Assembly (NCBI RefSeq): GCF_001598255.1
Contig: NZ_BCYP01000033.1
Location: 186,001 to 250,000 of the forward strand
Reading direction: 5' to 3'
Length of the DNA: 64,000 nucleotides
Source: Mitsuaria chitosanitabida ATCC BAA-476 = NBRC 102408
Lineage (GTDB): Bacteria > Pseudomonadota > Gammaproteobacteria > Burkholderiales > Burkholderiaceae_C
Both the position numbers and the translations under genes were made by a program. This document shows, in pieces, positions 2,252-62,056 of the stretch (position 1 is its first letter; each line of letters opens with the position of its first letter). Under the pieces are notes generated by a model. That model was given only the letters and a program-made list of their open reading frames with translations, was not told the DNA's origin and searched no databases.

Positions 2252-2347
2252 TGGCGGAAGGAAATGGGAGTCGAACCCACCCGGCGATGCGTGGCATCAC
2301 CCACCAGATTTGAAGTCTGGCCGACCCACCAGGGTCGTTTTCCTTCC
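2252..2347 (-). tRNA. selC: tRNA-Sec (anticodon UCA)
   Basis: 96-nt selenocysteine tRNA. Seen: an 8-bp acceptor stem GGAAGGAA/TTCCTTCC, discriminator G and encoded CCA; anticodon arm CCAGACTTCAAATCTGG with TCA in the loop; a long variable arm; and T-loop GTTCGACTC. The long acceptor and extra arm are the features that let SelA and SelB recognise this tRNA. Its 5' end is 16 bp after the selB stop, so it may be co-transcribed with selAB and processed out. Confidence 0.97.
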
Positions 2348-2363: not shown

Positions 2364-4796
2364 TCATGCGGCTTGCGAGGCGTGGGCGACATCGCCCGGC
2401 GCGTCTTCGTCGATGAACAGCCGGCAATCGGTCCGGAGCCGATGCGCGTCGCCGACGCGCCTCAGCAGCCCGACCTTGTCGAAGAACTCCAGCACCTGGA
2501 TCGCGCGCTTGCGGCCCAGGCCGCTGCGATCGCGGAAGGCCGCGGCGGTGACGTCGCCATCGCCGCCGATGGCCGACTCGCGCGCGATGCGGGCCAGGTC
2601 CCGGATCGCCGGGGGCGCATAGTACAGGTCCTTCACGACCTGGAACAGCTCGCCGCGCTGCGCGAGTCGCGCCAGCGTCGTGCGCACCAGCGCCTCGGGC
2701 TCCGCGGTCTGCTTGGCGAGATCGCGCGCCCAGGCGCCCTCGAAGCCCGCCGTGTTCAAGGCCGGCGTCATCTTCTGCGCGAGCCGCTCATCGAGTGCCG
2801 ACAGTTGCACGCCGTGCTCGGGCCGATGCGCTGCCGCGCCGGTGATGGCGACCTGCCCCGCCGCCGCCATGCGCTGCACGAGGGCGCGCCAGAGGGGCTC
2901 GGCCATGCGCGGCGCGGCGAGCCGACGCCAGCGCGCCAGATCGGGTCCGAGCTCCTCGGGTTGATCCTGGTGATAGCGCTCCAGGCGCTGCAAGGCGATG
3001 TCCGTCCACTGCGCCGTCTGCGCCGCACCCAGCGCCCACGCCGGACCAGCCGCGCCGGAGACCACGGCGCCGACGATGGGGTCACCCACTGCTTCTCCCG
3101 CCTGTGGGAGCGCGGCAGAGAGCCCGAAGATCCTCACCCCAACCCTCTCCCGCAAGCGGGCGAGGGAGTCGGAAGGCTCGTTGTCCTTAGAAGGCTCGTT
3201 GTCCCCGGAAGGCAAGATGTCTTCGGAAGGCTCTTTGTCTTCGGAAGGCTCTTTGTCTTCGGAAGTCTCGTTGTCTTCGGAAGGCTCTTTGTCTTCGGAA
3301 GTCTCGTTGTCTTCGGAAGGCGAGATGTCCTTGGAGGCGCTCGGTGTGCTTTGGCCCCCTCTCCCGCCAAGCGGGAGAGGGCTGGGGTGAGGGTCTTCCT
3401 CGTGGATCAGCGCCGCTCGCCCCCCCGTCGCCACGCCCTGCCCGGCGGCGAAGCGCGCCAGGTCCACGCCCATCGGCGCCTGGCGCAGCAGGCCGCTCAG
3501 TCGCTCGCTTACCGTCGGCGCGGCGAGCGCCACCAGCTCGCCCAGGCGCAGCGCCGTCCGCCGATACCGAGCCGGCCCCTGCGGATCGAGCACCACGCCT
3601 CCCGCCAGCGCCCGCGTCGCCGACGCGTCGCGGAGCACCACGCGATCACCGGCCCAAGCGCCGACCGGCCGATGCAGCACCAGCTGCACGAAGGCCTCCT
3701 CGCCCGGCGCGACCGCATCGAGCGCCCCGCCGCCGACCGCCCCCAGCACCGCGACCGACCCGGTCACCTGCTCCGCCCCGATGTGCACATGCACCGGCGT
3801 CCCGCTGCGCAGCGGCTTCGTTTCCTCCGCCCAGAGCCGCAAGCGCGCGTCCAGTCGGTCGGTCCACTGCGCGATCTCGGGCGCGGCCAGCCATTGCCCG
3901 CGCGCGACCTCATCCTTGTCGATGCCCACCAGCCCGATGGCCACGCGCTGTCCGGCCGTCGCGCGCTCCGCCGCCGCGTTCTGCGCATGCAGGCTGCGCA
4001 CGCGCCCCCGCCGCGGCGCCTGGCCCGGCGCGGGCGGCAGCAGCAGGAGCTCGTCGCCGATCGCGACCTCGCCCGCATGCGCGGTGCCGGTGCAGACCGT
4101 CCCCACGCCGGCGAGACTGAACACCCGATCCACGGCCAAGCGGAATCCCTGTCCCGCGAGTTCCCGCTTCGGCAGCGCGAGCGACTCGGCGACGAGGTGT
4201 TCGCGCAGCTCGCCCACGCCCTCGCCCGCCGTCGCGGCGACCTCGAAGATCCTCGCATCCGCCAGCGCCGTCCCGGCGAGCAGCGCGCGAATCTCATCGC
4301 GCCGCCGCGCGCGTGTGGCGGTATCGACGCGATCGCACTTCGTCATCGCGACCGTCCCGCGCGCAATCCCCAGCAGCGACAGCAACGCGAGATGCTCGCG
4401 CGTCTGCGGCATCACGCCGTCATCCGCGGCGACGAGCAGCAGCGCGTGGTCGATGCCGGTCGCGCCCGACAGCATGGTGTGCACCAGGCGCTCATGACCC
4501 GGCACATCGACGAAGCCGATGCGCGAAGCACGCGCGCCCGGCGCGGCCCCGTTCGGACTCGCACGCCCAGCCGCAGTCGCAGTCGCAGTCGCGGTCCCAG
4601 TCCCAATCCCAGTCGCTGCCGCAGTCGACGAGGATGCCGCCGCCCCCGACGCCTCGACGTCCAGATAGGCATAGCCCAGCGCGATGCTGATCCCGCGCTG
4701 CTTTTCTTCCGGCAGCCGATCCGTGTCGACGCCCGTCAGCGCCTTGACCAGCGTCGTCTTGCCATGGTCGATGTGACCCGCGGTGCCGACGATCAC
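2364..4796 (-). CDS. selB: Selenocysteine-specific elongation factor SelB, with two low-complexity insertions
   Basis: GTPase that brings Sec-tRNA to UGA codons next to a SECIS hairpin. Seen: GHIDHGKTT at residues 7-15, DVPGHE, TKCD, EF-Tu-like domains 2 and 3, and C-terminal winged helices (ending ..[24 protein letters not shown]) that bind SECIS RNA. At 810 aa it is about 200 residues longer than Escherichia coli SelB (614). One surplus is an Ala/Thr/Gly-rich stretch at residues 46-92 inside the G domain. The other, at residues 469-556, consists of hexapeptide repeats (SEDKEP-like) bracketed by palindromic elements, within the winged-helix region. The start is GTG, overlapping the selA stop (GTGA). 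The frame is intact. Confidence 0.95.
3132..3393 (-). repeat. Composite insertion in selB: two inverted palindromes around nine 18-bp repeats
   Basis: Left palindrome 3132-3168 (outer arm CCTCACCCCAACCCTCTCCCGC) and right palindrome 3355-3393 (its reverse complement GCGGGAGAGGGCTGGGGTGAGG, with one base mismatch) bracket nine perfect-length 18-bp units at 3172-3333, for example GAAGGCTCTTTGTCTTCG. The whole block keeps the selB frame. Confidence 0.95.
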
Positions 4797-8908: not shown

Positions 8909-11900
8909 TCAGGCTTTCTCGATGTTGACGGTGAAGCTCTTGAACTCCGGCGTCTGCGTGTTGGCGTCGCCCACGAAGGGGGTCAGCGTGTTCACGAGAT
9001 AGCCGGGCTTGGCCACACCGACGAAGCCCCAATGGTTCGGCAGCCCCACGGTGTGCACCCGCTTGCCGCCGACGTCCAGGGACGCCACCCGCTTGGTCAC
9101 CACCGCCACGGCCTTGATGTAGCCGCGCATGGAGCTGACCTTGACCTGATCGCCGTTGGCGATGCCCTTCTCCTTCGCCAGTTCCTCGCCGATCTCCACG
9201 AACTGCTGCGGCTGGATGATCGCGCTGGTGCGCACGTTCTTGGTCCAGTAATGGAAGTGCTCCGTGAGCCGGTAGCTGGTCGCCACATACGGGAACTTGT
9301 CCGGCGTGCCGAACTGCTCCCGATCGCCCTTGAACGCGCGGCCGGCCGGATTGTTCTTGGCCTTGGCGTTGTTCGGGTGCATGGGATTGGTCGTCAGCGG
9401 CGACTCGAAGGGCTCGTAATGCTCGGGCAGCGGTCCGTCCACCATGCCGCTGGGCGCGAACAGCCGCGCCACGCCCTCGCCCGTCATGATGAAGGGCCGC
9501 ACCGCGTCCTCGTCATTGGGGTTGGCGTCGGGCCGGATGTCCGGCACGTCCGAGCCGCCCCACTTGTCGCCCATCCAGCTGATGAGCCGACGCTTGGGGT
9601 TCCAGGGCTTGCCCGTGGGATCGACCGAGGCGGCGTTGTAGAGGATGCGCCGGTTCGCCGGCCAGGCCCAGGCCCAGTTCAGCGTCTGGCCGATGCCCCA
9701 CGGATCGCTGTTGTCGCGCCGCGCCATCTGGTTGCCCGCCTGCGTCCAGGCGCCGGCGTAGATCCAGCAGCCCGAGCTGGTCGTGCCGTCGTCGCGCAGC
9801 AGGCCGAAGCCGGACAACTGCTCGCCCGCCTTCTGCAGGACCTTGGTCGGGTCCTTGGGGTCGGTCACGTCGGCCAGCGCCTTGCCGTTGTATTCCATCG
9901 CCAGCTCCTCGGCCGAGGGGCTGTTGGGAATCTTGTAGGGCCAGGTCAGGTTGACGATCGGATCGGGGAAGGCGCCGCCGTCCTTCTGGTACATCGCCCG
10001 CAGGCGCAGGAAGATCTCCGCGATGATCTCCGCGTCGCCCTTGGCCTCGCCCGGGGGCTCCGCGCCCTTCCAGTGCCACTGCAGCCAGCGGCCGGAGTTG
10101 GTCAGCGAGCCGTCCTCCTCCGCGAAGCAGGTGCTGGGGAAGCGGAACACCACCGTCTGGATCTCTTCGGACTTGACGTCGTTGTGCTCGCCGTAGTTCT
10201 TCCAGAACTCCGCGGTCTCGGTGTTGAGCGGATCGATGATCGCGAGGAACTTCAGCTTGGACAGGCTCTCGACGATCTTCTTCTTGTTGGGGAAGGACCC
10301 CACCGGGTTGAAGCCCTGGCAGATGTAGCCGTTGATCTTGCCCTGGTGCATCAGCTCGAAGGTCTGCAGGACGTCATAGCCCTTGTCCCACTTGGGCAGG
10401 TAGTGGAAGGCCCAGTCGTTCTCCTTGGTCGCGGCCTTGCCCCACCACGCCTTCTGCTGGCTGACGAAGAACTTGGGATAGTTCTGCCAGAAGCTCATCT
10501 GGTTGGGGCGCAGCGGCTTGGTGGCGCGGGTCTTGTAGTAGGTCTCCAGATCCTGCTCGGAGTCCTTGGCCAGCGACATGTAGCCCGTCAGCGAGGTCGA
10601 CAGCAGCCCCAGGTCGGTCAGGCCCTGGATGTTGCTGTGGCCGCGCAGCGCGTTCATGCCGCCGCCCGGCAGACCGATGTTGCCCAGCAGCAGCTGCACC
10701 AGCGCGCCGGTGCGGATGATCTGCGAGCCCTGGCTGTGCTGCGTCCAGCCCAGCGCGTACATGATGGTCATGACGCGGCCGGGGACCGAGGTGGTGGCGA
10801 TCTGCTTGCACACCTCGAGGAACTTGTCCTTGGGCGTGCCGGTGATCTCGCTGACCTTCTCCGGCGTGTAGCGCGCGTAGTGCTGCTTCATGACGTTGAG
10901 CACGCAGCGCGGGTGCTGCATCGTCATGTCGACACGGGCGAAGCCCTTCTCGTCCATCTCGTAGGCCCAGGACGCGTTGCTGTACGCGCGCTTGGTCTCG
11001 TCGTAGCCGGAGAACAGGCCCTCCTCGAACTTGTAGCCCTCATTGATGATGAAGGGCGCGTTCGTGTAATGCCGGACGTACTCGGTCTGGATCTTGTTGT
11101 TGCTCAGCAGGTAGTTGATGACGCCGCCCAGGAAGGCGATGTCGGACCCCGCCCGCACGGGGGCGTAGTAGTCGCTCATCGCGGCCGAGCGCGTGAAGCG
11201 CGGGTCCACGACGATGAGTCGCGCCTTGTTGTGCTTCTTGGCCTCGATGACCCACTTGAAGCCGCAGGGGTGCGCCTCGGCGGCATTGCCGCCCATGATC
11301 AGGACGAGGTCGGCGTTCTTGATGTCCACCCAGTGGTTGGTCATCGCACCGCGGCCGAACGTCGGGGCCAGACTGGCCACCGTCGGTCCGTGTCAAACGC
11401 GGGCCTGGTTGTCGAACGCGAGCATCCCCGTCGCGCGCATCGCCTTGTGGGTGATGTAGCCCGACTCGTTCGAGGATGCGGAGGCGCAGATCATGCCGCT
11501 GGACAGCCAGCGGTTCACGACCTTGCCGTCGGCGTTGTTGGCGATGAAATTCGCGTCGCGGTCCGCCTTGAGCAGCTTCACGAAGCGGTCCATCGCCTCG
11601 TCCCAGCTCACGCGCTTCCACTCCTTGGCGCCCGCCTCGCGGATCTCGGGGTACTTCAGGCGGTTCTCGCTGTGGACGAAGTCCAGCAGGCCCGCGCCCT
11701 TCGGGCACAGCGTCCCGCGATTGACCGGGTGATCCGGATCGCCCTCGATGTGGATGATGTTCGCGGCGACGTTCTTCGCGCGATCACCCAGCGAATACAT
11801 GATGATCCCGCAGCCCACCGAGCAATAGGGGCAGGTGTTGCGGGTCTCGGTCGCCCGGGCGAGCTTGAACTGGCGGGTCTCGGCCAGTGCAGCGGTTGGA

Positions 11901-28448: not shown

Positions 28449-28690
28449 GACCCTCACCCCTGCCCTCTCCCGCAAGCGGGAGAGGGGGTAACACCGCACG
28501 GGCGTCATCGTGGCCCACACGCTGAGCGCCCCGGCGGCCCCTCTCCCGCTGCGCGGGAGAGGGGGCAAGACCAAGCGCTGCGCAGCCAGCCTCCACCTCG
28601 CGCCGTAAGACCAAGCGCTGAGCAGCCAGCCTCGACCTCGCGCCGAATGGCCCCTCTCCCGCTGCGCGGGAGAGGGGTTGGGGTGAGGGC
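28449..28690. repeat. Patch of three GC-rich palindromes and a 40-bp tandem duplication
   Basis: Copies of the CCCTCTCCCGC..GCGGGAGAGGG element lie at 28451-28488, 28538-28565 and 28651-28688; the first and last carry the outer CCTCACCCC / GGGGTGAGG arms in inverted orientation. Between the last two, a 40-bp unit (AAGACCAAGCGCTG...) is repeated at 28567-28606 and 28607-28646 with few differences. No gene. Confidence 0.9.
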
Positions 28691-59135: not shown

Positions 59136-59223
59136 CATCAAGACATCAAGACATCAAGACATCGAGACATCGAGACATCGAGACATCGAGACATCGAGAC
59201 ATTGGGACATTGGGACATCAAGA
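59136..59223. repeat. Octanucleotide tandem repeat, 11 units
   Basis: Units in plus orientation: CATCAAGA three times, CATCGAGA five times, CATTGGGA twice, CATCAAGA once. Not in a gene; it lies between the YgjP-type gene start and the palindrome at 59259. Confidence 0.95.
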
Positions 59224-59258
59224 ACGGCCCCTCAACGAGAACGCCTGCGCGGTGGCAG

Positions 59259-59297
59259 CCCCCTCTCCCGCTGCGCGGGAGAGGGCGGGGGTGAGGG
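59259..59297. repeat. GC-rich palindromic element, single copy
   Basis: CCCCCTCTCCCGC-TGC-GCGGGAGAGGGCGGGGGTGAGGG. Lies just after the M3-type peptidase stop on its transcript, where a hairpin could act as an mRNA 3' end. Confidence 0.9.
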
Positions 59298-61251: not shown

Positions 61252-61662
61252 ATGGCGGCCATGCGTGACGACAGCGACCCGCCCTGCCCCAGTTTCATCG
61301 TCGAGCTCCAGCCCCAGGGCTGGCGCTTCGACGCGCCCGTCGACCAGTCGCTGCTGCTGGCCGCGCTGGACCACGGCCTGCGCCTGCCGCACTCCTGCCG
61401 CAACGGCACCTGCCGCGCCTGCATCGCCCGGCTGGTGTCGGGCCGCGTCGAGTACCAGGTCGAGTGGCCGGGGCTGTCCCGCGAGGAGAAGGACGAGGGC
61501 TGGATCCTGCCCTGCGTGGCATGCGCCCGCACCGACCTGGTGCTGGATCAGCCGCAGGCGATCAATCTGTTCGAGGTCCCGGTGCCGCCGGGCGCAGTGG
61601 GGGGTACTGCCGCGCTCCCACCCTCTCCCCTGCCCTCTCCCGCCCCGCGGGAGAGGGAGTAA
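61252..61662 (+). CDS. 2Fe-2S ferredoxin-like protein with a repeat-encoded C-terminus
   Basis: 136 aa electron-transfer protein. Seen: plant-type motif SCRNGTCRAC (CxxxxCxxC) followed by ILPCVACARTDLVLD, giving four cysteine ligands. The core finishes at about residue 120; the last 15 residues (LPPSPLPSPAPRERE) are encoded by a GC-rich palindromic element, which also provides the TAA stop. Start ATG 61252 or 61261. Redox partner unknown. Confidence 0.85.
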   Translation: MAAMRDDSDPPCPSFIVELQPQGWRFDAPVDQSLLLAALDHGLRLPHSCRNGTCRACIARLVSGRVEYQVEWPGLSREEKDEGWILPCVACARTDLVLDQPQAINLFEVPVPPGAVGGTAALPPSPLPSPAPRERE

Positions 61663-61826
61663 TACGGCGCCGCGCGTCGCCCCGAGTCACTCCCTCGCCC
61701 GCTTGCAGGAGAGCGAGTGAACAAGCATCACGCTGGACGGCCCCCTCGCCCGCTTGCGGGAGAGGGAGTGAACAAGCATCGCGCTGGACGGCCCCCTCGC
61801 CCGCTTGCGGGAGAGGGCTGGGGAGA
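61620..61826. repeat. Array of palindromic elements with a 51-bp tandem unit
   Basis: Elements at 61620-61660, 61689-61719, 61741-61770 and 61794-61826. The last three share the spacer GTGAACAAGCATC-R-CGCTGGACGG at a 51-bp period. The first overlaps the ferredoxin 3' end. The remaining sequence to the chemotaxis gene (61827-62056) has no gene; a leader with AAGGAC repeats precedes its ATG. Confidence 0.9.
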
Positions 61827-62056
61827 GGGTCTTCGCGCGCTGGCGCGAGCGTGGGGCGGATGAGTCGCTACGGGTACGCGGTCCCGCCTTCCGCGCCGTA
61901 GTTCACAGCTTCCCCCCTTGTTCCCTCGATCAGGATTAACCCGGAGCAGGCAGCATTCTGTCCGTTCAACAAACATGTCGGGGCCGACCCGTTGACGGGC
62001 CGGCCCGACCTCATGCGAGCTCCCCCGAGGACGAGAAGGACAAGAAGGACGTCGAG

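Follow-up and report, generated by a model that had tools for sequence, protein, structure and literature searches.

In the genome of Mitsuaria chitosanitabida, the selenocysteine-specific elongation factor SelB carries in frame an insert of 273 nt, in which a dispersed GC-rich palindrome, present twice in inverted orientation, flanks an array of 18-bp tandem repeats. We consider it likely that a pair of triplex-motif copies came to lie in a tolerant loop of SelB, that the spacer within this pair was duplicated into the 18-bp array and that the protein tolerates the disordered acidic loop thus produced. The features under discussion are collected in table 1, in positions of the window, the 64,000-nt stretch of DNA that was analyzed.

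The host gene encodes an uninterrupted protein of 810 residues, which scores 411.7 bits with the NCBIfam model TIGR00475 (cut-off 242.25) and contains the Pfam domains GTP_EFTU, Beta-barrel_SelB, SelB-wing_2 and SelB-wing_3; this curated equivalog score, together with the domain order, identifies it as SelB. Eight matches to the protein are present in the genome, this ORF being the only one of full length, and the closest named SelB that was found is that of Roseateles caseinilyticus, at 60%. SelB has a likely client, given that a tRNA-Sec gene adjoins it and that an in-frame TGA lies in a gene which we take to be formate-dehydrogenase-like.

Table 1. Position, strand and basis of the features in and around selB.
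Feature	Position	Strand	Basis
selB, selenocysteine-specific elongation factor, host of the insert	2364..4796	minus	TIGR00475 and Pfam domains
tRNA-Sec, anticodon TCA, adjoining selB	2252..2347	minus	ARAGORN
In-frame TGA, presumed Sec codon, in a presumably formate-dehydrogenase-like gene	11393..11395	minus	Translation with TGA = U
Element inserted in frame (273 nt, 91 codons; residues 467-557)	3126..3398	minus	Arms, alignment, absence in 15 congeners
Arm 1: tag GAAGAt, CCTCACCCC, aa, hairpin CCCTCTCCCGC-aa-GCGGGCGAGGG	3126..3168	plus	Sequence; by-eye comparison with the pattern of PMC4666352
Arm 2: inverted counterpart of arm 1, first loop of the triplex motif 7 nt long	3357..3398	plus	By-eye comparison
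Tandem array, 18-bp unit in 8.5 copies, encoding SEDKEP / SEDNET	3169..3321	minus	TRF score 215, 84% matches
Element spacer running into the array, likely array seed	3167..3190	plus	20/24 identical to L010 spacer
Additional weak hairpin adjoining the element, with no counterpart in the relatives compared	3095..3110	plus	Sequence

The initial annotation had described an open frame with nine 18-bp repeats, flanked by inverted copies of a palindrome that recurs elsewhere, in an insert of about 87 residues at 3132-3393. The flanking palindromes, the open frame and the 18-bp unit all stand, with better bounds at 3126-3398 and a copy number closer to 8.5. The inverted arms (3126-3153 and 3371-3398, 28 nt each) are 93% complementary and 217 nt apart. 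As RNA, the insert folds better than its shuffled versions (z -6.06), with the arms pairing; for the hairpins as DNA, for which energies alone were computed, the values are z -1.58 for arm 1 and z -2.49 for arm 2. No Rfam RNA was matched in 2900-3600 at E ≤1. The block is known from one genome assembly, as assembled sequence rather than at read level.

Beyond selB the palindrome is abundant; the initial annotation had noted copies elsewhere between genes. Its arm core, with up to three mismatches, occurs six times in the window and in none of 100 shuffles, and genome-wide at 213 places versus one for the reversed control. Copies are composed of a tag (GAAGAC), CCTCACCCC, two free bases and a hairpin (CCCTCTCCCGC..GCGGGAGAGGG), each base of the tag being found in 79-99% of the 126 outermost copies. 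Read on the other strand, the palindrome follows the pattern of TM_ECO, a GC-rich intrastrand triplex motif named by Holder et al. (2015; PMC4666352), namely CCCTCNCCC N3-6 GGGNGAGGG N3 GGGNGAGGG with one mismatched stem base allowed. The genome contains 145 exact matches to this pattern versus 0 in the control; the highest count per genome in the cited study is 143, by its own settings. The family can therefore be assigned to TM_ECO on its pattern, even if each arm in the window stands one step off the strict form. By eye, arm 1 is a minus-strand copy of the motif whose third (last) stem has one mismatch, which the rule allows, whereas arm 2 strictly misses the pattern because its first loop has 7 nt instead of the published 3-6.

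Repeats of the triplex-motif kind are reported from 262 proteobacterial genomes, with no agreed role, and the same study found no stable triplex either in duplex TM or in in vivo footprints (PMC4666352). At an E limit of 10, a 36-base copy of our motif is matched in 5341 of 5426 E. coli genomes, and the five E. coli matches listed show 91.7% identity (E 6e-4). A close motif pattern is matched in 13 of 40 genomes, including seven of the 16 of the genus; in the SelB tree these belong to a single clade with eight members (support 96/96). The eighth member, G002, has no motif copies at ≤1 mismatch, and its sequence would be consistent with loss or decay of the family. TM_ECO (or PIT) elements resemble those studied here in forming inverted pairs. 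They have been linked to local instability (PMC4666352), of which the arrays enriched inside pairs and the differences between species, each represented by one genome, at a second loop of SelB (loop B, see below) may be a sign in our data. The two also differ: in E. coli MG1655 TM_ECO is described as always intergenic and its changes are mostly small intergenic ones and deletions, whereas here one pair lies in frame within a gene and pairs often enclose arrays; tandem arrays between TM_ECO copies are not reported in the parts of the study that were covered (PMC4666352).

The association of arrays with the element was quantified in 80 loci: the block of the window (L001), 36 loci found by similarity to it (L009-L044), two motif copies of the window (L045 and L046), one locus from the Y1 search (L166) and 40 loci (L167-L206) from the first 100 of the 213 pattern places. 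Together they contain 86 element groups, 41 of which are inverted pairs. Arrays are present in 22 of the 41 pairs (21/40 minus that of the window), whereas among length-matched control pieces, taken from the same loci with coding DNA included, 93 of 1640 (5.7%) contain one; the outer flanks are the closer control, and arrays occur in 6/81 of those of 200 bp. Arrays cover 45% of the interior bases, 2.3% of the bases outside and 4.9% of those in the near flanks. Since loci L009-L044 had been chosen by their similarity to the window block, a separate count was made on contigs C1-C22, which hold pattern-list loci, and gave arrays in 14/31 pairs, or 13/30 (p 3e-9) once a pair lacking an exact core in the pattern list is left out. 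Among single copies, 36 of the 42 were tested, the others being too near an end: the array lies on the hairpin side in 18/36 and on the outer side in 2/36, with 16 copies discordant towards the inside only and 0 towards the outside only (p 3e-5). At least one of these 'singles' (window 28452) has a variant partner beyond the array. No array was found in 19 of the 41 pairs. In 8 of the 22 array-bearing pairs, and likewise in 4 of the 18 array-bearing singles, the stem of the motif itself is part of the repeated unit; the remaining units differ between places.

Within the window, an array lies no more than 250 bp from each of the four motif places. The region 59136-59296 has an 8-bp unit repeated 11 times (CATCGAGA) on the hairpin side of the motif copy at 59276; at 28452-28680, a 40-bp unit is present twice between a motif copy and an apparent variant copy with one extra C; and at 61622-61828, a motif pair is accompanied by a 51-bp unit that includes the motif stem and is repeated 2.5 times. 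Elsewhere in the genome, the arrays of CTCCCTCTCCTTCTT and CTCCCTTTCCCT type at L019 and L184 resemble eroded copies of the motif's C-rich stem.

The same analysis of another species of the genus (G007) covered 40 stretches from the first 100 of 157 places. Arrays are present there in 6/24 pairs, four of them among the six pairs with an interior of at least 60 bp, and four of the six units hold the motif itself (by eye). Interiors are short in this genome (median 32 bp; 15-17 or 32 bp in 15 of the 24 pairs), and the 16 singles show no bias of side (two arrays inside, one outside). The association between arrays and element is strong in the source genome (G000) and weaker in G007.

The 18-bp unit itself seems to derive from the element. 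The 24 bases beside arm 1 share 20 identities with the spacer of another locus, L010, a value reached by 0 of 2000 shuffles, and sister spacers show the trinucleotide TCG (L014) or the tetranucleotide TCGA (L015) at exactly 18-bp spacing. Among the best 12 spacer matches, at least three bases are repeated at distance 18 in L010, L014 and L015 alone, the run of L010 (TCGATG) including bases past the first 24. On this sequence resemblance, the SelB array probably descends from the spacer of the element, an origin that the initial annotation had not considered; slippage across short repeats of this kind would have made the 18-bp unit, its six-codon length having arisen by luck. Array periods outside the block of the window are multiples of three in 10 of 21 cases, and the 18-bp unit is therefore no sign of selection. 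The idea that this unit is a repeat common to other loci was rejected by a genome pattern search, in which all eight matches of a 23-base pattern (≤3 mismatches) lie inside the SelB array and none elsewhere.

To place the insert in time, SelB was aligned from 16 genomes of the genus (one per species, the source genome included), all of which possess it, and from four outsiders. The block is absent from the orthologous site in each of the 15 congeners, and in 12 of these the SelB locus contains no motif core at ≤4 mismatches. An insert that had been flagged as unusual for SelB is indeed confined to one species among the 16, and a situation in which all relatives carry it with a fixed repeat number, which would have spoken against a recent mobile origin, does not apply. 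The SelB tree joins G000 to G002 with modest support (80/94); G002 lacks the block and has 102 nt where G000 has 408 nt. Compared with its counterparts in G002, G010 and G009, the SelB stretch is longer by 306, 276 and 318 nt, respectively, values that exceed the 273-nt block because the weak hairpin, perhaps a decayed further copy of the element, adjoins it. Given the empty sites in relatives, we infer that the element was inserted at this site of SelB.

The same palindrome is found in frame at a different site of SelB, a loop of the beta-barrel (loop B), in G004, G007 and G009, which form one clade in the SelB tree (support 100/100); the copy in the SelB of G004 fits the TM pattern with the exception of the last base. 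Loop B contains 42-bp units in G004 and G007 and two 9-bp arrays in G009 (units by eye), and hence what is apparently one shared insertion holds different arrays. The loop occupied by the window block is also expanded without the motif in G005, G013 and G014, in G013 by (GCGAGT)n, which indicates that this loop is a tolerant place.

The structure predicted by AlphaFold from 22 sequences (mean pLDDT 77.3; 421 of the 810 residues at 90 or above) bears on the earlier question whether the insert is a surface loop. Residues 466-572, bounded by a helix (457-465) and a strand (575-579), fall under pLDDT 50, as do residues 35-41, 51-88 and 798-810. E. coli SelB (5lzb) aligns up to residue 389 and resumes at its residue 411, the insert falling between. 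The insert is thus predicted to be a disordered loop in the first winged-helix domain; a known domain was rejected, since residues 466-572 have no Pfam match and the region is predicted to be disordered. The GTPase domain contains a second low-complexity insert, made of 6-bp repeats (window 4527-4655, residues 48-90), which lies between the effector strand and DVPGHE and varies in length across the genus. Most likely, SelB tolerates the insert in its winged-helix domain and would work with it. The initial annotation had left room for either tolerance or use of the insert by SelB; use is not supported by the present data, and tolerance appears to be the simpler reading.

The following sequence of events would account for these observations. 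An inverted pair of copies of the TM_ECO/PIT class, read in a frame that contains no stop, would have come into the first winged-helix domain at a loop that accepts changes in length. The element's own spacer within the pair, to judge from the spacer similarity, would then have been duplicated head to tail into a unit of 18 bp, or six codons, most likely because replication stalled at a hairpin or triplex and the strands then slipped. Where an array lies in a gene, it would survive if it preserves the reading frame, and the product would be a disordered acidic loop that SelB tolerates. The association between arrays and element is observed directly, whereas causation by the element is what we infer from it.

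Mobility of the element is central to the main alternative, a REPIN-like mobile element in which inverted REP-type sequences are moved by a Y1 (RAYT-type) transposase and the array is incidental. The architecture of inverted tagged hairpins does resemble that of REPINs, and two Y1_Tnp genes score above cut-off, one of them with a single motif copy about 0.4 kb away. In the 3.3-kb loci of these genes, the first is accompanied by the motif at one side and the second at none, so that flanking by the element at both sides was rejected for each. REPs and REPINs share with our element the tagged hairpins, the inverted dimers and occasional in-frame sites within genes, REP dimers inside genes being in print (Di Nocera et al. 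2013; PMC3733652). They differ in carrying a GTAG or CGTC tag rather than GAAGAC, in spacers that are mostly 20-100 bp and, in the parts of that study covered, in having no general link to arrays (PMC3733652), which here are strongly tied to the interior of the element. An assignment to GTAG/CGTC REPs or REPINs was rejected on the tag and on the lack of RAYT flanking, and we regard a REPIN-like origin as rather unlikely. The mobile origin proposed at the outset was not borne out either, in that no clear target-site duplication was seen by eye in 37 pairs and neither of the Y1 genes is enclosed by copies of the element.

Selection of the insert, with the acidic repeat loop tuning the activity or contacts of SelB, appears improbable. 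The SelBs of the clade do carry the motif in frame at two different loops in different species, but the insert is predicted to be disordered, is found in one species and differs in sequence from the inserts of loop B, and its loop varies freely across the genus. Least probable is that ordinary slippage in a length-variable loop made the array first and that palindromes landed around it later, for even if the same loop expands without the motif in G005, G013 and G014, the array starts in the element's spacer (20/24 with L010) and arrays inside the element are common elsewhere in the genome.

Copies inside other genes were sought by applying a strict GC3 test to the 86 element groups, which was passed by SelB, L179 and L020; L021, L037, L166 and L191 passed a relaxed test only, and a stretch of 467 residues beside the element of L021 has no Pfam match. 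This test is not specific because the antisense frame of SelB passed it too, and L020 was set aside by eye as it looks like a low-complexity frame; hence the figure of 2/86 groups within genes is a judged one. At L179 (2003-2023), the open frame of a helicase-type gene, with the Pfam domains HA2, OB_NTP_bind and DUF3418, contains one single motif copy, which falls within DUF3418.

Palindromic elements of Rickettsia stand in frame in many proteins, a likeness to the present insert that is one of description. They are not known to contain an internal array. These elements are named also by Di Nocera et al. (2013; PMC3733652), in whose work genes for DNA repair are numerous among those with in-frame REPs, and some genes for RNA enzymes are included as well.

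Palindromic repeats inside genes are a known phenomenon, to which the insert in SelB adds a new case. What is new, and may surprise the specialist, is the tie of triplex-motif pairs to tandem arrays, with a result that lies inside a translation factor; a limited literature search found no earlier account of such SelB inserts or of arrays between triplex motifs. Tentatively, we suggest that inverted triplex-motif pairs may act as nurseries of minisatellites, in which the spacer becomes an array and, within genes such as that of SelB, may give rise to new protein sequence that keeps the frame. The tie between triplex motif and array offers a testable link from DNA structure to the birth of repeats, and the insert in SelB shows a translation factor that has gained about 90 residues with its frame kept.
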